From Paludibacteraceae bacterium (GTDB lineage: Bacteria > Bacteroidota > Bacteroidia > Bacteroidales > Paludibacteraceae), in assembly GCA_017559385.1 (NCBI GenBank), contig JAFYSK010000036.1, positions 18,364-82,363 of the forward strand: a stretch of DNA of 64,000 nt, written 5' to 3'. The position numbers were made by a program, and so were the translations under genes. Shown here one piece after another: positions 28,053 to 35,294 of the stretch (position 1 is the stretch's first letter; each line of letters begins with the position of its first letter). The notes beneath the pieces are model-generated. The model was given only the letters and a program-made list of their open reading frames with translations, was not told where the DNA came from and did not search any database.

Positions 28053-28547
28053 CTATCTTTTTTCCAGTTCTATCACTTCCAAATCCTTGATCTTATCACC
28101 ATCTATTACAAAGCGCAACAATGTCTGCACCACTTGCCAACCTTGCTTGCCTGCCGCCCCTGGATTCATGGTCAACATCTGCCAGGTGCTATCATATTGT
28201 ACTTTCAAAATATGGCTATGTCCACATACAAACAACAACGGAGTCTCCTTCTTAAACATAGGCAACAACCAGGGATTATACTTACCTGGATAACCGCCTA
28301 TATGTGTCATCAACACATCCACTTCCTCCACACGAAACCTATAAAACTCACTCAACGAATACCTCACATCACCACTATCCATATTGCCATACACTGCTCG
28401 CGTAGGCTTATACTCACGCAGTTGCTGTAGCACTTCCATACTACCTATATCACCTGCATGCCATATCTCATCTACATCAGCAAAATGCTCCAGCACACGC
28501 TTATCCAGGTAACCATGAGTATCACTCAACAAACCTATCCTTGTCAT
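28053..28547 (-). CDS. YfcE/MJ0936-type metallophosphoesterase
   Basis: A 164-residue cytoplasmic phosphodiesterase of the calcineurin-like superfamily. Metal ligands are in place: LLSDTHG (5-11), HAGDIG, YGNMD, the THIGG histidine and CGHSH. The acceptor is unknown; characterised relatives cleave phosphodiesters in vitro. Its ATG overlaps the stop of the GldF-like permease by four bases, so both are translated from one message. That pairing has no obvious functional logic. Confidence 0.87.
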   Translation of the reverse strand: MTRIGLLSDTHGYLDKRVLEHFADVDEIWHAGDIGSMEVLQQLREYKPTRAVYGNMDSGDVRYSLSEFYRFRVEEVDVLMTHIGGYPGKYNPWLLPMFKKETPLLFVCGHSHILKVQYDSTWQMLTMNPGAAGKQGWQVVQTLLRFVIDGDKIKDLEVIELEKR

Positions 28548-29209
28548 CTCTTGCCTATCCTACCTGCTATCAATATACTTACTACTATTGCTGCCACTGC
28601 CACACTCACAAAGAACACCACATCTCTTAAATCTACCACGCCACGAGATATACTACGATAGTGATCTTGCAGGACTACCCAATACAGAACAAAGTTACTT
28701 ACTGCACCCAAGATAAAGGCCACCAACTGACTAGCTGTCATGGTACTACACAACATACCTATACCTGTAAACGATGCACTTAAAAACACCAATCCCATCA
28801 TCGAACCAGCAAACTGACCACCATCTATATTACCCATTGGCTCTGCCATATAAAACACAATAAAATAGTGCACTACACAGGGAAACAAGGCCAACACTGT
28901 CAGCACAAAAGCTGCCAAATACTTATAAACCACTATCTTCCACAACGCAATGGGCTGAGCTCTCAACAGCAACCATGTTCCACTCTGCTTCTCTTCTGCA
29001 AACAATCGCATAGTCAAGGCTGGACACACAAGCATCAGCAACCATGGAGCTATCTGAAACAAACCATCCACCTGGGCATACCCCGACTCTATCACATTCC
29101 ATTGTCCTGGTATGACCCATAAGAATAAACTAACTGCCAAGAGAAACAAACCAATCACTATATATGCAATCGGTGTAGAGAAATAATATGATAATTCTTT
29201 TTTGAACAT
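28544..29209 (-). CDS. ABC-2 permease, GldF-like
   Basis: A 221-residue inner-membrane protein with six hydrophobic segments. The start MFKKELSYYFSTPIAYIVIG and the AEEKQSGTWLLLRAQPI loop are those of GldF, the permease tied to gliding and exopolysaccharide functions in Bacteroidota. The usual ATPase (GldA) and GldG partners are not in the window, so this looks like an orphan permease needing a partner from elsewhere. It has its own promoter and overlaps the metallophosphoesterase. Confidence 0.82.
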   Translation of the reverse strand: MFKKELSYYFSTPIAYIVIGLFLLAVSLFLWVIPGQWNVIESGYAQVDGLFQIAPWLLMLVCPALTMRLFAEEKQSGTWLLLRAQPIALWKIVVYKYLAAFVLTVLALFPCVVHYFIVFYMAEPMGNIDGGQFAGSMMGLVFLSASFTGIGMLCSTMTASQLVAFILGAVSNFVLYWVVLQDHYRSISRGVVDLRDVVFFVSVAVAAIVVSILIAGRIGKR

Positions 29210-29607
29210 TTGCTAGTGCTGTTTAGTATGATCTTTCTAATTTTTCTGCAAAAGTAGTAGTTTATTTTGAATTGTGCAAATCTTTTATTAATTTTTCAAC
29301 ATATACTTGCATTTGTATACCCTTAGTATACCTTTGGTATAGGAAAAGCGACTCGCAGGTTCGGGACCACTATAGGAGATCTGTGGGCTTTCGGTGGCTT
29401 TTTATAACTATGTCTCTATAATAATGTTGCAAAAATCTTCGGCCTTGAAGGTATTTTGTGCCGAAGATTGGAGATTTTGGAATGGAAAGTAGTATATGAA
29501 GCATGCGGAAGTAGCTGTATTATAACCACTTCCGCATGGGTGTGTTTTTTTTCGAAAAAGTTTTCGTGTGCCGAAGATTGTGCCGAAGATTTCAAATATC
29601 AGCGAAA
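29210..29607. repeat. Repeat-rich 398-bp gap between gldF-like and tatC
   Basis: Besides the promoter it holds an 11-bp array (29315-29347: GTATACCCTTA, GTATACCTTTG, GTATAGGAAAA). The 10-mer GCCGAAGATT occurs three times (29460, 29570, 29582) and once inverted (29434-29443), giving a 10-bp hairpin at 29434-29469. A perfect 11-bp stem CATGCGGAAGT/ACTTCCGCATG (29502-29538) is followed on the forward strand by eight T's. No gene is seen. Confidence 0.75.
29249..29279 (-). promoter_or_regulatory. Promoter for the GldF-metallophosphoesterase pair
   Basis: Reverse strand TTG (29277-29279, TTTGCACAATT), 20 bp, TACTTTTG (29249-29256). An 11-bp array lies just upstream at 29315. Confidence 0.82.
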
Positions 29608-30399
29608 TTATTCTTTTACTTTCGTATGCGCCACGATATGAATACTCAGTTCGTAGAGCAGATATAGCGGTACTGTCACCAACAGCAAAGTGAATATATC
29701 AGCAGTTGGTGTAATAATAGCAGACAAAATGGCTAATACGACAATTGCATGTTTGCGGTATTGTATCAATAGAGGTTTATCTATTATTCCCAATTTTGCT
29801 AAAAAATAAGCAATAATCGGTATCTCAAATAATATGCCCAGCAATAAAGACAATACCAATAGCGTTGATATATATGACTTTAACGCAATTTGATTGACTA
29901 CAATTTCCTGTACTTGATAGGTGCTCAAAAAACGAAATGCGAAAGGAAATATCACAAAATAGTTAAGCAAAACACCTAACGCAAACAATATCACGCCAAA
30001 GAATATCAGCATGATTGAGTAGCGTTTCTCTTGGGTGTAGAGCGCAGGTGCAATAAATCCATATAGTTGAATAATCAAATACGGGAATGCAACCAAAATA
30101 CCCATAACCACTGCCACTTGCAAATGTGTAGTAAATTGCGAGGCGAGTTCGGTATTGATGAAGTTTACATAAAAATCACTTGGACATAGTGAGGGGATAG
30201 ATAATCGATCTGCCAACCAGCACAACCCGCGATAGAGAATAAAATCGGATTGCGAGGGTGCAAATAATACGCTAAAAAGTGCGTCCTTAAAGCAGAACGC
30301 AGCAATAGCACATATCAGCCATACTACCAAGCAACGGAAAACAACCTTTCGGAACACTTCGACATGTTCCCAAAAGGTCATCTTCTCCTCGTTATTCAT
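29608..30399 (-). CDS. tatC: TatC, twin-arginine translocase core subunit
   Basis: Polytopic inner-membrane protein that recognises twin-arginine signals and forms the Tat channel with TatA. The N-terminus [12 protein letters not shown] is the TatC cytoplasmic signature; six hydrophobic segments follow, and the [15 protein letters not shown] stretch is typical. A start at 30399 (MNNEEKM, 263 residues) was preferred over one far upstream that would run through tatA; 30381 is also possible. It overlaps tatA by 8 nt and is the last gene of the Cys-repeat operon. Confidence 0.93.
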
Positions 30400-30619
30400 C
30401 TCCATCTTTCGTTGGTGATTCTTCGGAGGCTGATTGAGATGGTTGTTCTTCCAAAGGGCGTTTGACTTCCTCTTCCATCTCATTCATACCCTGTTTGAAG
30501 GACTTAACACCTTTGCCCAAACCTTTCATTAGTTCTGGGATTTTCTTACCACCAAAAAGTAATAGCACAATGAGAAGTATTATAATAATCTCAGGTGCTC
30601 CAATCATCAATAGTGTCAT
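30392..30619 (-). CDS. tatA: TatA/E-type twin-arginine translocase subunit
   Basis: 75 residues: one N-terminal membrane helix (about 8-22), a [16 protein letters not shown] hinge and amphipathic helix, and a charged tail, the normal TatA plan. It forms the pore that lets folded proteins cross the inner membrane. No separate tatB is present, which is normal in Bacteroidota. It starts 6 nt after the small Cys-tailed protein gene and overlaps tatC, so it is in the same message as the Cys-repeat modification genes. Confidence 0.94.
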
Positions 30620-30625
30620 ATTTTT

Positions 30626-30919
30626 TTATTTATTGCAATTACAAGAATTATTACAAACTAAAAAGATCTCACATGTATCAAAATTAATCTCCCAATTTCC
30701 ACCTTGACATGATTCCCAATTATATTTAGCAGCCATATCATCCCACCACTTTTGGAATTTAGTACTAGTTTTTCCTAAATCCTTTACTAGTTTTTCGTAA
30801 AGTTCTGCATTATCAGCAGTAAGAATTTTTGCTAACTCATTTAACCCATTACGGCGTTCAAATAAAGCTTGAATGGTGTTTTTCTCTTCTAGAGTCACCT
30901 GTCCTACAAGTTTTTTCAT
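30626..30919 (-). CDS. Small Cys-tailed accessory protein of the CXXX-repeat system
   Basis: 97 residues. The first ~65 are helical and charged (start MKKLVGQVTLEEKNTI, then FERRNGLNELAKIL). The last 30 carry five cysteines at 71, 83, 89, 93 and 95, ending CNNSCNCNK. From memory it resembles the small 'CXXX repeat peptide modification system protein' that accompanies these maturases. It could be a carrier, recognition partner or second substrate; none is shown. It sits one base after the second maturase and 6 nt before tatA. Confidence 0.7.
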   Translation of the reverse strand: MKKLVGQVTLEEKNTIQALFERRNGLNELAKILTADNAELYEKLVKDLGKTSTKFQKWWDDMAAKYNWESCQGGNWEINFDTCEIFLVCNNSCNCNK

Positions 30920-30920
30920 A

Positions 30921-31874
30921 TTAATATTCCTCCTTTATATCAAATGGATCTAAGTATGTTATTTCTTTTATTTCATTCTTTATCAAATACCCGACCTCTT
31001 TCAATGCTAACTGCAAATCACGCGCCGCATTGCGCTCTAGATGTGCAAGTACACATTGTTGACGTGACGGTGTATTGTTGTCCCACGTCATTTTCTGATT
31101 GAGCCAAATACAGCGTTTACAATGGTATGCATCACAAATACGACAAAGAGGTGCATGATCAAGTTGCAGAAGTTGTTTGTTAGGTATATCAATACCATTG
31201 TCCAGATCCCCCACACTGCGCGATGCATCTTTAGTCTTGTGATTCATGCGGTTGCTGATACCCATTTGCTCATCATAGTAGAACGCAGGACAGAGATAGA
31301 ACTTGCCATTGGGAGCAATAGTGATGTTGCTTATTCCTGCTCCGCAATTGTGCATTTCAGTGAGTTGCATGCGGTCGGTTAGAATGTTCAACTGCGGACT
31401 CTTAACCTGTTTGTAGAGATTCAGCAATACAGCATTAAGTGTTGCCAACGCGTTCTTGTATTCTTCCATCTGCTCCTCTTGGAAGTTCTCTGTATCAGTC
31501 AAACAAATATTGATACGCTTAGCTTGTTGCAACAATGAGGCTATGTCATTCTGTTTAGTTATAAACTCATTTATTGTCAAACGTAAAACCAGATTATTAG
31601 TATATGCCATTTGTGGTACGCTATCATACACCAATACTTCACGTCCAATTTTGATATGATCAATACTCTCTATCACTTTATGGTATTCAACAGGCAGTTC
31701 GTAATTTGGATATACAAACTGAATCATCAAGTTTTGCTTCATACCAAAAAGAATAGCTTTACGCAATGTATCTAAAGGTATGAGTTTCGGCTCAGTAAGT
31801 GGATTATTGGCATGGCAGTAAGCCACGCTAGTATCATCCAATAGGATAACTAAATATTGCAAGTATGGTTTCAT
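30921..31874 (-). CDS. CXXX-repeat peptide maturase, SPASM-like, without the radical SAM motif
   Basis: 317 residues. The C-terminal third has the cysteine pattern of a SPASM/twitch auxiliary-cluster domain: C177 (NCGAG), C195 (FYLCPAF), C244, C247, C252, C255 and C274. The N-terminal half has only C20 in the first 120 residues and no CxxxCxxC, so it cannot form the usual SAM-cleaving cluster. It resembles what I recall as the 'CXXX repeat peptide maturase' family. It probably works with the true radical SAM enzyme encoded three bases upstream. Confidence 0.72.
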   Translation of the reverse strand: MKPYLQYLVILLDDTSVAYCHANNPLTEPKLIPLDTLRKAILFGMKQNLMIQFVYPNYELPVEYHKVIESIDHIKIGREVLVYDSVPQMAYTNNLVLRLTINEFITKQNDIASLLQQAKRINICLTDTENFQEEQMEEYKNALATLNAVLLNLYKQVKSPQLNILTDRMQLTEMHNCGAGISNITIAPNGKFYLCPAFYYDEQMGISNRMNHKTKDASRSVGDLDNGIDIPNKQLLQLDHAPLCRICDAYHCKRCIWLNQKMTWDNNTPSRQQCVLAHLERNAARDLQLALKEVGYLIKNEIKEITYLDPFDIKEEY

Positions 31875-31877
31875 GGC

Positions 31878-33110
31878 TTAGCAGATTACATCGTTAGACT
31901 GTTTTTTGTTTTGCTCATACTCCTCGCGTTTGCCTTCTAACTCCAATTTGCGATAGAGCTTGTTCCAATAATAATTATTCGCACGGACGCGCGCCTTGTG
32001 CATCTTGCAAATAGCTGTTGCACGCTCATATACGGTGTGCGTTTTGGCTGCATCAAAGTTTTCACCTTGACACCATGCACAACCCTCTGCTACTTCACAA
32101 TCGATACATTCGGGTGATGACTGCGTACAACGATCAAGCGTTAAGAAAGGACGCAATTTATTGTTATCAATGCCATCATTGATATTACCTATAATCCATG
32201 CCTCTTTATCTCGAAGTGAGTACTGTGCAAAACGAGTACAAGGATAGAAATTACCTTTTGCATCAATAGATAGCATCTTACCTGCTCCGCACCAGTTTTG
32301 ATTTTGGTACTTGCAATCCATCGGCTTGCCCATATGTTCAGTAAAGAACGAGCATGAGTAATCTTGATAGTAACCTTTGTCAATGATGATGTCTGCTAGT
32401 TGTACTAACTGCTCCTCAAATAGCATATCGTCTCCCTCTTTCCATACCACCTCAAATACGCAGTTAATATTCACTTGACGAATTCCTAACTCATAAAGAT
32501 GCAATACTGATTCACATATATAAGGTATATCTTCGCTACTGATGGTAACCTTGGTTCCTGCACCTGGAAATTGTTGCAACCAAAGTGGTATATTGCGTAC
32601 TACATCGTCATATGATCCACGCTCTGGTCCATTGCCCTTCCAAATACGATTTAGATCATGTTTGCGACGAGTTCCATCAATTGTGATGCCAATACTCAAG
32701 TGCTGACGATTCTTTTCAATGAACTTTTGTACCTTGTCACTATGGTAATTGATTCCGTTTGTGGAAAAAGAGAAACGATAAGAGTTGAACCAATGATGAT
32801 CTCTACGGAAAAGTTCCTGCTTGATATAATCGCAAATTCTATCGATAAGATCAATTTCCAAGAATGGCTCACCACCTATAAACTCCCAAACGACAGACTC
32901 AAAAGCGAAGTTCTGTTTATTTTCTCTATCAAGGATATAATCGATAGCAGCTTTAGCCACATCAAAGGACATTCGTTCCTTTTCGTTCTTACCTACAAGA
33001 TAGCAATATTTACATGCTAACTGACAATCTTTCGTAACGATAAAGGTAATGGATTTCGCCATACCTTCCTGCCAACCCGAATCGCCTGTTTTTATTTTTA
33101 GTTTGCGCAT
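31878..33110 (-). CDS. Radical SAM/SPASM peptide maturase, CXXX-repeat target type
   Basis: A 410-residue iron-sulfur enzyme. The SAM cluster motif CQLACKYC gives C29, C33 and C36; GGEP (79-82) binds SAM. The C-terminal SPASM domain has C274 (CGAGK), C291 (FYPC), C328, C335, C338, C344, C347 and C368 for two auxiliary clusters. Such enzymes install thioether, carbon-carbon or epimer changes in ribosomal peptides. The obvious substrate is the Cys-repeat protein in the same operon. Its start overlaps the lipoprotein gene by 13 nt. Confidence 0.9.
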   Translation of the reverse strand: MRKLKIKTGDSGWQEGMAKSITFIVTKDCQLACKYCYLVGKNEKERMSFDVAKAAIDYILDRENKQNFAFESVVWEFIGGEPFLEIDLIDRICDYIKQELFRRDHHWFNSYRFSFSTNGINYHSDKVQKFIEKNRQHLSIGITIDGTRRKHDLNRIWKGNGPERGSYDDVVRNIPLWLQQFPGAGTKVTISSEDIPYICESVLHLYELGIRQVNINCVFEVVWKEGDDMLFEEQLVQLADIIIDKGYYQDYSCSFFTEHMGKPMDCKYQNQNWCGAGKMLSIDAKGNFYPCTRFAQYSLRDKEAWIIGNINDGIDNNKLRPFLTLDRCTQSSPECIDCEVAEGCAWCQGENFDAAKTHTVYERATAICKMHKARVRANNYYWNKLYRKLELEGKREEYEQNKKQSNDVIC

Positions 33111-34177
33111 TTTGTTGCTTTCAATGATTTCATTATAAGAGATTTATGGAGTATACCCTCAATATTAGTATTGATAATATCGGCATGGTTTATCTTGTAC
33201 GGAGCTTTCTCTGGCATCGAAGTTGTGTTGGATGTTTTGGTCATTTCTACTTCTATAAATACTTCAAAACGATTGTAATTTGTTGGGTTCTCAGCTTCGC
33301 TGTATCTAAACACCATACCATTGGCGTATTTGCCAGTCTCTGGGTCTGGAGTATCAGATGCACCTAAACATAACTTGCCATTACTATTAAATGTGAGCCA
33401 AGCCTCTGCACATCCTTCGTATCCATTTCCCGAATACAGATAAGTGAACGTATCTTCATTTTTATTAGCATATACAGGATAGAATCTTGCAATGTATGAA
33501 ATGTCTTCGCCCGTAAATGTGAATGTTCGGTTGGTAAATTGCCATCCACTGAACAGACGAATACATTGCTTCTCGGCATCAAATTGACCCAAAGCTGTAA
33601 AGAAAGTATAACCTTCCCCTAGCAATATTCCTTCCACATATACCGCATTAGACCAATAATCCGTATTGTACGTTTTAATTTTCACTCCAGACCATGTTTC
33701 ATACGTTGCAGCATCCCAATTATAAGCTTTTAGAGAATATGTACCTAGAAAATCATTTATAGTGTACTTTTTGCCACCATCATCAGGATCATCATTTGGT
33801 TTTCCTGTCGTAGTCATCTTAAAGTACTTGATATCGCCGTAACTAGTACCTATATCATTAGTTGCATAAGCTCTATAAGTGTATGTGCCTGGTTCGACAC
33901 GTTCCAATATAGCAGAGAAAGAACCTTTTCCACTACCTGCACTAACTACATTATTTGATATAGTTGGCACGACTCCAGATGAAGAAGTTACATAGCATAT
34001 TCCTCTTTCTGTTACAACATCTCCCCCATCTGACTCAACATATCCGTTCAATTGTACAGTTTTTGCCGTTGCATATACAATAGCATCACCTGTTACTACA
34101 GTTGGGAATGTAGCCTTTTGCTCACACGAAATAAATGTCAAAGCAATTGTTGCTAAATACAAAAGTTTATTTTTCAT
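33098..34177 (-). CDS. Lipoprotein with an FN3-like domain, in the CXXX operon
   Basis: 359 residues. A lipoprotein signal (FISCEQ, Cys18) puts it in the periplasm or on the surface. Residues about 30-125 form a fibronectin-III-like unit of a Bacteroidota type, with VTERGICYVTSSSG and TYTYRAYATNDIGTSYGD. After a DDP-DDGG spacer, the second half is beta-rich without a family I know. It lies between the Cys-repeat protein and its maturase, so it may be a surface partner of the exported product. The 3' end overlaps the maturase start by 13 nt. Confidence 0.75.
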   Translation of the reverse strand: MKNKLLYLATIALTFISCEQKATFPTVVTGDAIVYATAKTVQLNGYVESDGGDVVTERGICYVTSSSGVVPTISNNVVSAGSGKGSFSAILERVEPGTYTYRAYATNDIGTSYGDIKYFKMTTTGKPNDDPDDGGKKYTINDFLGTYSLKAYNWDAATYETWSGVKIKTYNTDYWSNAVYVEGILLGEGYTFFTALGQFDAEKQCIRLFSGWQFTNRTFTFTGEDISYIARFYPVYANKNEDTFTYLYSGNGYEGCAEAWLTFNSNGKLCLGASDTPDPETGKYANGMVFRYSEAENPTNYNRFEVFIEVEMTKTSNTTSMPEKAPYKINHADIINTNIEGILHKSLIMKSLKATKCAN

Positions 34178-34200
34178 AGTATTACAAATTGATTCAATTA

Positions 34201-34905
34201 TTAACTAGTTGTTCCTTTGCATGTCATATCACATGTTCCCGAGCAATTACCTGCACATGCTGTACCGCAGGCTCTAGAGCATGTACCTGAGCAAATTGTA
34301 CAAGAGTACGGTCCGTATCCCATCGCTTGACAAGTAGTTTGGCATAACCCACCACAAGACCTATCACATGTAGTATCGCAATAGCCTGAGCAAGAGTTTT
34401 CACATCCGTAGCCACAATATTGCATACATTGTTTTGAGCACTCTACACATTGTCCAGCTGCAGTTCCAGAGCACGTGCCCGAACAATTAGAACCACAACT
34501 ACCCGTGCAAGAGCCTGAGCAGCCAGATGAACATCCTCCTGTACAAGTGGATTTACATGTACCAGAACAACCATTTCCACAGCCACCTGTACACGACGAA
34601 CTACAACTATTAGAACAGCTATCACCACAACCATCCGCACAATTCATCGTACAGTCTGATGCACATGTCGCCGAACAACTATTCTTACAAGTTTGTCCTA
34701 TAGCTGAACCTTCACAACTTGACGTACATGCGCCAGAACAACTACCTTCACAAGTAATTTCACAACTATTCTTACAATCCACGCGATGTATATCGCAAGA
34801 ATTGAGAAGAACAGATCCTACAAATGACATTCCTAAAATAGGCAACGCAGATTGCGCCGCTTTTTTAAAGAAAGTGCGTCTAGAATACAATTCATCGTCT
34901 TTCAT
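34201..34905 (-). CDS. CXXX-repeat protein: Tat-exported Cys-rich lipoprotein, probable maturase substrate
   Basis: 234 residues. The N-terminus has a twin-arginine motif SRRTFFKK (8-15), a hydrophobic stretch, and a lipobox LLNSC with Cys37, so it is read as a Tat-exported lipoprotein. Beyond it are 44 cysteines, nearly all in C-x-x-x-C register, the spacers rich in Gly, Ser, Thr, Asn and Asp. The register breaks at a few points (near SAIGQT, TAAGQ and AMGYGPY). The ATG at 34903-34905 was chosen because 15 further upstream codons would bury the Tat signal. It heads the operon. Confidence 0.9.
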   Translation of the reverse strand: MKDDELYSRRTFFKKAAQSALPILGMSFVGSVLLNSCDIHRVDCKNSCEITCEGSCSGACTSSCEGSAIGQTCKNSCSATCASDCTMNCADGCGDSCSNSCSSSCTGGCGNGCSGTCKSTCTGGCSSGCSGSCTGSCGSNCSGTCSGTAAGQCVECSKQCMQYCGYGCENSCSGYCDTTCDRSCGGLCQTTCQAMGYGPYSCTICSGTCSRACGTACAGNCSGTCDMTCKGTTS

Positions 34906-34954
34906 AACGCAAAAAAGATTGTTGGGAAGTAGGCTCCATAGTATTCCCATGGTT

Positions 34955-35228
34955 AAAAAGAAAGCGTGGAACCTTATGTCAACTTATTCTCTCTAACGAA
35001 GTTCCGGAAAGACTCTAATCCAAGAATAAGTAATAACGTCCACGCTGATATGTATAGACATTGCATGAACGCAAACCAATACATACCATCAGGACGCTTA
35101 CTGCATCTTGTTTCGGGGATTGAAATTTTCCGGATTTCGTTAGACCAAAACAAGCGTCAATAAACGCCTTTTTAATATGTCCGCGACCTCAGCTAGTGGT
35201 GTATAAACATCCTCCAGCGCAGGTTCAC
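34955..35228 (-). ncRNA. Predicted structured RNA, 6S-like rod, upstream of the CXXX operon
   Basis: It starts at a perfect promoter (35233-35263). The first nine bases (35221-35229) pair with 34965-34974, and a T-rich run (34955-34963) follows, closing the molecule like a terminator. Inside, 34993-35143 folds as one rod: CTAACGAA/TTCGTTAG, TCCGGAAA/TTTCCGGA, AATCC/GGATT, CGTCC/GGACG and TATGTAT/ATACATA, with a bubble at 35022-35029 opposite 35102-35116. A rod with a central bubble is the 6S RNA plan, but the ~274 nt length is above usual, so the family is unproven. Confidence 0.6.
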
Positions 35229-35232
35229 GTTG

Positions 35233-35263
35233 CAAAGATACAACAAATTTTGCGGATATGCAA
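35233..35263 (-). promoter_or_regulatory. Promoter for the structured RNA and probably the CXXX operon
   Basis: Reverse strand TTG (35261-35263, TTTGCATATCC), 20 bp, TATCTTTG (35233-35240). No comparable promoter is seen between it and the Cys-repeat ATG at 34905. Confidence 0.82.
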
Positions 35264-35294
35264 AAAAAAATCGCATTTTGGTGCGATTTTTTTT
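35263..35294. terminator. Terminator hairpin abutting the RNA promoter
   Basis: Eight A's and TCGCA (35263-35275) pair with TGCGA and eight T's (35282-35294) around a TTTTGG loop. It can insulate the promoter from transcription arriving from the right. Confidence 0.8.

Follow-up and report, generated by a model that had tools for sequence, protein, structure and literature searches.

A CXXX-repeat protein, its putative radical SAM maturation proteins, and tatA-tatC in one Paludibacteraceae operon: a candidate pathway for Tat export of a modified peptide

The window analyzed here is a stretch of 64,000 nucleotides from a gut bacterium of the Paludibacteraceae (assembly GCA_017559385.1, contig JAFYSK010000036.1, positions 18,364-82,363 of the forward strand), in which seven tightly packed minus-strand genes run from 34905 to 29608 and encode, in this order, a CXXX-repeat substrate, a lipoprotein, a radical S-adenosylmethionine (SAM) protein, a SPASM-type partner, a small protein, TatA, and TatC. 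This operon probably constitutes a self-contained pathway for making and exporting an envelope protein that resembles the ribosomally synthesized and post-translationally modified peptides (RiPPs), which would be cross-linked in the cytoplasm, exported by its own TatA-TatC pair of the twin-arginine translocation (Tat) system, through which proteins cross the membrane after folding, and, in this organism, lipidated. The proposal draws on the genes and their recurring order, the twin-arginine (RR) motif of the substrates, the presence of this tatA-tatC copy beside a second tatC, and an exporter swap in two divergent lineages. In the proposed pathway, the radical SAM protein, the SPASM partner, and the small TIGR04116 protein would read the N-terminal leader of the substrate, perhaps its K/R-x-x-L-P part, and the CXXX repeats would be modified while still in the cytoplasm, with thioether cross-links formed by the cysteines as the likeliest change. 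To judge from the families involved, a chain cross-linked in this way would not thread through Sec, and this would account for the use of Tat; the leader would double as the twin-arginine signal, the matured protein would leave through the co-encoded TatA-TatC, and the substrate of the window would then acquire a lipid at Cys37 and be anchored to the envelope.

The set and order of the genes, and the positions of their open reading frames, are those described in the original prediction, as are five of the six gaps between them (23, −13, 3, 1, and 6 nucleotides); the last gap, given there as −8, is −14 if tatC starts at 30405 and −8 if it starts at the next in-frame ATG, at 30399. The radical SAM protein (626 bits against TIGR04115, cut-off 350), the partner (212.5 bits against TIGR04119, cut-off 150), the small protein (101 bits against TIGR04116, cut-off 50), and the substrate (35.2 bits against TIGR04114, cut-off 20) all score above the thresholds of the NCBIfam CXXX-repeat radical SAM system (TIGR04114 to TIGR04119), in agreement with the original statement that such maturases form known bioinformatic families; the substrate also scores 45 bits against TIGR04117, just under the cut-off of 50. 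TatA and TatC are similarly assigned (74.3 bits against TIGR01411, cut-off 53.9, and 155.2 bits against TIGR00945, cut-off 132.7). Pfam, searched with E values up to 0.1, gave no family for the substrate, the 359-residue lipoprotein, or the partner.

The 234 residues of the substrate include 45 Cys, the 44 counted previously plus the lipobox Cys37. Another Cys is found at exactly +4 from 38 of them; when the sequence from Cys37 onward was shuffled 10,000 times, this number averaged 9.9 and never exceeded 20. Both the twin-arginine motif SRRTFFKK and the lipobox, LNSC at Cys37, are present as predicted.

Relatives of the radical SAM protein numbered 409, of which the best 80 were kept as named loci (L numbers); the nearest are from three Paludibacteraceae metagenome-assembled genomes from sheep and roe deer gut, with radical SAM proteins that are 83-86% identical to that of the window. 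Nine of the 80 loci end within 2.6 kb after the radical SAM gene, three of these still having tatA and tatC, and the remaining 71 were scored: both tatA and tatC lie downstream in 60, tatA only in four (L103, L109, L110, and L113), and neither in seven (L079, L082, L085, L106, L107, L119, and L123), so that the tat link proposed for this one operon extends to most of the homologous loci examined. The recurring order is substrate, radical SAM protein, partner, small protein, tatA, tatC, and the spacing between the gene for the small protein and tatA is mostly −4 to +16 nucleotides across loci. Among 14 divergent loci (L157-L170, L166 being a duplicate of L125), tatA-tatC is present in L162-L166 and L169 and not in L157-L161, L167, L168, and L170. 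In genome samples that each include the window's own, TIGR04115 exceeds its cut-off in 13 of 150 from the family, 12 of 393 from the order, and 6 of 395 from the phylum; the system is patchy, yet it occurs in many gut Bacteroidales, including the named strain Xylanibacter rarus 109 (L080).

CXXX-like open reading frames, called mechanically together with their starts, were collected by a rule requiring six or more Cys, of which no fewer than four, and no less than 40%, had a Cys at +4; five duplicate loci (L166 and L171-L174) were dropped, near-copies such as L106 and L107 were kept, and three short precursors that the rule missed, those of L159-L161, were located by reading upstream of the radical SAM gene. 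Of the 168 frames so collected, 155 have a twin-arginine motif with a hydrophobic stretch behind it, as do 25 of 2,280 other frames of at least 100 residues, scanned over their first 60 residues. The 13 frames without the motif comprise five antisense artefacts, two that are cut by contig ends, and six others (L053, L061, L078, L080, L112, and L170). The signal noted in one substrate is therefore found in nearly all, including those of loci without adjacent tat genes. No locus was seen that lacks tat genes and has a Sec-type signal on its substrate, among the loci examined and with no signal-peptide predictor applied; the tat-less loci with RR-less precursors have an ABC exporter. In the 155 signals, a Phe is located three residues after the first Arg in 151, a Leu at +12 in 136, and a Pro at +13 in 143, and the residue three before the Leu of this L-P pair is Lys or Arg in 116, a degree of conservation that we take to exceed the needs of a Tat signal alone.

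By the position of the first Cys, the 155 substrates form two main classes. In 53 this Cys is 20-32 residues after the RR, at a distance resembling that of a lipobox, although a good lipobox is not present in all; these have a median of 184 residues from the RR and 32 Cys. In 99 the first Cys is later and the medians are 91 residues and 13 Cys; in 92 of these the residues before that Cys loosely resemble AxA, and in 28 they match it strictly. The other three of the 155 have an earlier Cys. Lipidation, predicted for the protein of the window from its lipobox, would thus be a property of one of two classes, a minority of about one-third of the substrates. The largest repeats contain up to 62 Cys (L112). 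It should be considered whether the product is a secreted antimicrobial or signalling peptide of the bacteriocin type, cut from its leader and released, for which the shorter class with its AxA-like stretches, as well as the occurrence of several paralogs of the substrate at one locus (eight in L075), could be taken to speak. The substrate of the window, however, has a lipobox, and the flanking genes give little sign of such a function: lipoproteins related to the 359-residue one adjoin the radical SAM gene or substrates in 13 of the 80 loci, with 14 of 14 members on the same strand, and three of six scanned members have fn3, Big_2, or InlB-type repeats over cut-off, but no other flanking family, on clustering in which most clusters are without annotation, is found in more than six of the 80 loci, so that no shared immunity gene is evident. 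A released peptide therefore appears unlikely, and a role at the cell surface is our best guess for the product.

The copy number of tatC suggests that the translocon belongs with the system. In the 150 genomes of the family, tatC is present at least once in 103 and twice in seven, all of which are among the 13 with TIGR04115, so that 7 of the 13 genomes with the system carry two copies, against 0 of the 137 without it (Fisher p 6e-9, a test that treats genomes as independent, as does the one below). By coordinates, tatC lies close behind the radical SAM gene in 11 of the 13, and in the other two (G009 and G026) the contig ends first. Within the genus of the window, all 4 genomes with the system have tatC, versus 1 of 9 without it (p 0.007). 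Together with the recurrence described above, these counts rule out a chance adjacency of the tat genes.

The genome of the window (G000; a 2.0-Mb assembly of 70 contigs, 85% complete) has a second tatC, at the end of a contig (G000:C13:9434-10117, L002) and beside an apparent alkaline phosphatase gene, and the possibility that the operon copy is the only tat of this cell is ruled out by this gene, with 50% identity between the two. In four genomes the operon TatC and the other TatC are 40-50% identical. In six genomes tatC is found only beside CXXX radical SAM genes: G050, G087, G142, G131, G145 (the assemblies of G131 and G145 are 81% and 78% complete, and coordinates alone were used to judge these two operons), and G067. 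G067 was not counted among the sole-tatC cases: it shares ordinary Tat-like signals with its congener G015, in which a second tatC is present, so that one may be missing from the 90% complete assembly of G067. A profile of 18 CXXX signals, run on 20 genomes with E values up to 0.1, matches only CXXX loci in these six. In G134, a genome of the same genus as the window but without the system, tatA-tatC adjoins, by eye, an apparent RR-bearing aldo/keto reductase-ferredoxin, and signals of the PF10518 type on contigs C9 of G015 and C33 of G017 are 2-4 kb from the second tatC; the tatA-tatC of G134 and the second tatC of G015 and G017 look like a housekeeping set. In L175 (6577-10718), tatA-tatC adjoins what resemble, by eye, a twin-arginine aldo/keto reductase-ferredoxin and a polyferredoxin with an internal RR, which are likely ordinary Tat clients in the family.

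In a tree of 117 TatC proteins, several rows of which have long branches, the operon label requires 5 changes as compared with 36.7 in shuffles. One clade consists of 51 operon copies (100/100), and the TatC of the window belongs to a second, open operon group of 17 (88/92; one member, from G009, starts at a contig edge), which, together with eight other copies carried by the same genomes or by relatives, lies within a well supported set of 26 (99/98). Since the starred branches force at least three changes, a single gain with losses and several gains are indistinguishable.

The radical SAM protein and its partner are informative about the probable chemistry. In an alignment of 13 radical SAM proteins (A1), ten Cys are invariant, those of the CX3CX2C motif and seven in the SPASM part. 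For PapB, ten cluster cysteines are reported in a section of PMC10470005, and by this match in number we assign the ten as putative cluster cysteines. The closest solved structure by sequence is PDB 5wgg (E 4.6e-34), named as CteB in the same section (PMC10470005), and the protein also matches the PapB family NF047865 (E 5.4e-58; 196.8 bits, below the cut-off of 340). The partner has no CX3CX2C motif, but eight Cys are invariant among its 29 aligned relatives (A2), seven of them in SPASM-like positions, and its profile matches the SPASM region of 5wgg (E 3.8e-5); we read it as an auxiliary-cluster protein rather than a second radical SAM enzyme. Both of the maturation proteins predicted originally are thus present, but the operon has a single radical SAM enzyme. 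No PDB entry is a convincing relative of the small protein by sequence (best E 0.19). The Cys tail ascribed to it is not conserved: 4 of 27 aligned members have it, among them that of the window, and the tail was rejected on this ground as a second substrate. A defence system was also rejected, as only weak viperin-type PADLOC matches were obtained for the radical SAM protein. Fusions of radical SAM protein with partner in L170, and of partner with TIGR04116 protein in L157, suggest that the three proteins work together, possibly as a complex. Kinship with PapB and CteB suggests that the modification would be a thioether cross-link. Among 2,638 repeats, Ser or Thr accounts for 48.6% and Gly for 21.8% of residues at X3, and Gly for 35.3% at X2, with no acidic preference; Asp, Glu, Asn, and Gln together make up 14-19% at X1-X3.

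RiPP precursors usually leave the cell through ABC transporters, and such exporters are found in two divergent lineages of the present system, on which the exporter swap rests. Three loci from one genus (L159, L160, and L161) have the radical SAM protein and partner without tat, and TIGR04116 was not found in them. Upstream of the radical SAM gene they have short CXXX precursors (66, 66, and 68 residues from the chosen starts) that are RR-less and, by eye, have no hydrophobic stretch, with near-identical C-terminal ends, and an ABC exporter lies behind the partner (checked with Pfam in L159 and L161, and recognized by similarity in L160); sequence identity to the exporter of L159 is 61% for L160 and 64% for L161. 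In the separate lineage of L170 (4076-9588), an RR-less precursor (33.4 bits against TIGR04118, cut-off 35), an ABC exporter, a subtilase-family protein, the fused radical SAM-partner protein, and TIGR04116 occur together, again with no tat genes. All four of these genomes have tatC elsewhere. Apart from these loci, a search for the exporter in part of the window and 94 loci yielded only L062 (29% identity over 425 residues, about 3 kb upstream of the substrates) and matches of about 200 residues in L056 and L109. The leader of the L159-L161 precursors contains R/K-K-T-L-P, and in an automatic alignment this L-P coincides with that of the Tat signals. As K/R-x-x-L-P is common to the Tat-type signals and these three precursors, though missing in L170, the Tat signal may double as a maturase leader; the simplest reading would be that the K/R-x-x-L-P part docks to the maturase and that the RR and a longer hydrophobic stretch made the leader a Tat signal.

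With 45 Cys in 234 residues, the substrate could instead be a metal carrier whose CXXX chain binds metal or Fe-S in the cytoplasm, in the manner of a metallothionein, and folds; Tat would then be required to export a metallated and folded protein, and any changes made by the radical SAM enzyme would be minor. Tat classically serves cofactor-loaded proteins, and a recurring metal gene is possible, most flanking clusters being without annotation. Bufferins, as they are described in part of PMC12452194, are exported, Cys-modified, and copper-binding RiPPs. On the other hand, the radical SAM protein, SPASM partner, and TIGR04116 protein recur together, and the first two also occur with small precursors and ABC exporters, which fits peptide modification. 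A metal carrier of this kind therefore seems distinctly improbable, and cross-linking before export is the preferred interpretation.

It should be recognized that a number of observations weigh against the pathway as proposed. The 80 named loci are the best of 409 relatives and not a random sample, and the counts of RR motifs come from unequal scans, of whole frames for the substrates and of the first 60 residues for the controls. The general Tat-signal model TIGR01409 matches 2 of 18 CXXX signals (E up to 1), and PF10518 matched no CXXX locus in 20 genomes. PapB joins Cys to Asp or Glu in C-X3-D/E motifs, according to part of PMC9413430; this acceptor four residues after the Cys is missing from the repeats, where that place is occupied by the next Cys, so that the bond would differ from that in freyrasin. 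The L-P motif is short and absent from the precursor of L170, and TIGR04116, which is present in L170 and not found in L159-L161, is tied to neither exporter. Finally, tatC is not adjacent in 11 of the 71 loci, all of whose genomes have tatC elsewhere (that of L106 has two, one within a second CXXX operon), and the same applies to the divergent, RR-bearing L157, L158, L167, and L168. These RR-bearing substrates without a neighboring tatC would be expected if the modification were real and the adjacent tat genes merely raised Tat capacity or were passengers, another Tat of the cell being able to export the product. But in the family sample a second tatC is found only in genomes with the system, five genomes (two of them 78-81% complete) gave no other tatC, and the operon copies form long-lived groups in the tree and, in the four genomes noted above, are 40-50% identical to the other tatC; we consider this explanation rather doubtful and retain a dedicated translocon.

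The coordinates are collected in Table 1. The only minus-strand match to a two-box Bacteroidetes-type promoter between 29281 and 38742 is upstream of the whole gene set, the pattern being based on the −33/−7 consensus; 13 such pairs occur in the window, versus 2.24 expected. A sigma-70-type scan gave 17 sites, fewer than in shuffles (21.7), with six weak minus-strand sites within the operon, and the terminator scan gave nine sites versus 4.0 in shuffles, four minus-strand ones being inside operon genes and none between the small gene and tatA. Given a promoter pattern upstream only, and these scans, transcription of the whole operon as a single transcript is likely. With respect to a separate promoter for tatA, which would have told against a joint operon, there is no two-box match inside the operon, but one of the weak sigma-70-type sites (30610-30582) is just inside tatA. 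Downstream of the operon, a gene for a GldF-like ABC permease (28544-29209, minus strand; below the family cut-off) follows a promoter-like site at 29249-29280.

Table 1. Features of the CXXX-repeat operon and its upstream region (positions in the window)
Feature	Position	Strand	Basis or remark
Promoter-like TTTG-N20-TATCTTTG	35233..35264	-	Upstream of operon; pattern match to consensus
Conserved structured leader RNA (model R1)	34944..35189	-	Directly upstream of substrate gene; fold z, covariation, model match
CXXX-repeat substrate, 234 aa, 45 Cys	34201..34905	-	
Tat-type signal of substrate: SRRTFFKK, hydrophobic stretch with LP, lipobox Cys37; possibly maturase leader too	34795..34905	-	
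CXXX repeat region of substrate, Cys44 to Cys229	34219..34776	-	
Lipoprotein of unknown family, 359 aa	33098..34177	-	
Radical SAM/SPASM maturase (TIGR04115)	31878..33110	-	PDB 5wgg E 4.6e-34; ten invariant Cys
SPASM-type partner without radical SAM motif (TIGR04119)	30921..31874	-	Eight invariant Cys; 5wgg SPASM region E 3.8e-5
Small CXXX-system protein (TIGR04116)	30626..30919	-	NCBIfam match
tatA	30392..30619	-	NCBIfam/Pfam
tatC, alternative start 30399	29608..30405	-	NCBIfam/Pfam

The 5' leader (34906-35228) has a fold z of −6.43 (100 shuffles) and resembles stretches before the substrate genes of relatives. In an alignment of 12 such leaders, 97.9% of cells are paired and 15 pairs are changed on both sides, the structure being derived from the same alignment that was used to score covariation; four of five measures are above all 500 shuffles, the number of pair types is not (84 of 500 reach it), and slid controls pair in 38-55%. 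The model R1 built from it scores 222.7 bits on the leader of the window, a training sequence, and among the window, the 80 named loci, and six others it has 62 matches with E < 1e-4 in 60 loci besides the window; 45 matches are at most 700 nucleotides upstream of a substrate start, as are 34 of the 51 non-training ones. No Rfam family fits this RNA of about 250 nucleotides, which is possibly a new class of regulatory leader. It is not specific to the CXXX system, a possibility that is ruled out by its occurrence in 108 of the 150 family genomes (E up to 0.01), with up to 13 scored matches each and including genomes without the system; other copies in G000 include C18:832-1109 and C59:50061-50307. 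Of 20 further copies, many precede, by eye, genes for lipoproteins or BspA-like repeat proteins, and this multicopy occurrence before envelope-type genes is a hint that the operon is one of a group encoding envelope proteins.

Comparison with characterized systems shows how the operon differs from each. The CXXX-repeat system is described by its NCBIfam models, which, as far as could be seen, include no link to an operon-borne tatA-tatC. The novelty claimed for the Tat link may hold for the translocon genes, and less surely for the signal, since TIGR04117 (E values up to 1, the lowest 5.5e-6) picks out the signal region in 15 of 18 cases and its makers may have noticed it. PapA/PapB (freyrasin; ranthipeptides) and CteB (SCIFF) similarly combine a SPASM radical SAM enzyme having ten conserved Cys with Cys-rich peptides, but the system of the window has, besides its lack of the Asp/Glu acceptor, an extra SPASM partner, substrates of up to 62 Cys, and a twin-arginine signal in place of a plain leader. 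Export of cofactor enzymes by Tat also employs an RR signal, TatA, and TatC, whereas here the translocon is within the maturation operon and the substrates are repeat peptides with no recognized enzyme domain. The MNIO-modified bufferins resemble the present substrates in having a signal peptide instead of a leader, in the export of a Cys-modified protein, and in that some are lipoproteins, but they use Sec and an MNIO enzyme where the window system has a twin-arginine signal and a radical SAM protein; in the relevant part of that source, no dedicated translocon is mentioned and Sec signals on RiPP precursors are called highly unusual (PMC12452194).

In the open-access literature, no paper was found that joins "CXXX repeat" with "radical SAM", names TIGR04115, or joins "twin-arginine" with "SPASM domain"; "ranthipeptide" with "twin-arginine" gave only genome reports, and TatC with radical SAM and "ribosomally synthesized" only multi-omics work, as far as the titles listed show, while none of the papers retrieved for RiPP terms contained "twin-arginine". 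In the part of one review that bears on it, "CxxxC" refers solely to an enzyme motif (PMC5682303), the main text of a survey of Bacteroidales RiPPs does not contain the words tat or twin-arginine (PMC10352776), and a rumen survey using the ranthipeptide rule TIGR03973 describes, in an excerpt, that class as largely absent from Bacteroidota (PMC13289728).

On balance, we lean toward the view that these loci represent a new class of RiPP export, in which a maturase leader has been turned into a twin-arginine signal and is served by a private TatA-TatC that is the only Tat found in some species and has no other recognized client, divergent relatives using an ABC exporter and an RR-less leader. 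If this is correct, the dedicated Tat route would show how bulky modified chains can exit the cytoplasm of Gram-negative bacteria, would supply candidate single-client Tat translocons, and would provide a testbed for whether Tat inspects the maturation state of the proteins that it exports.

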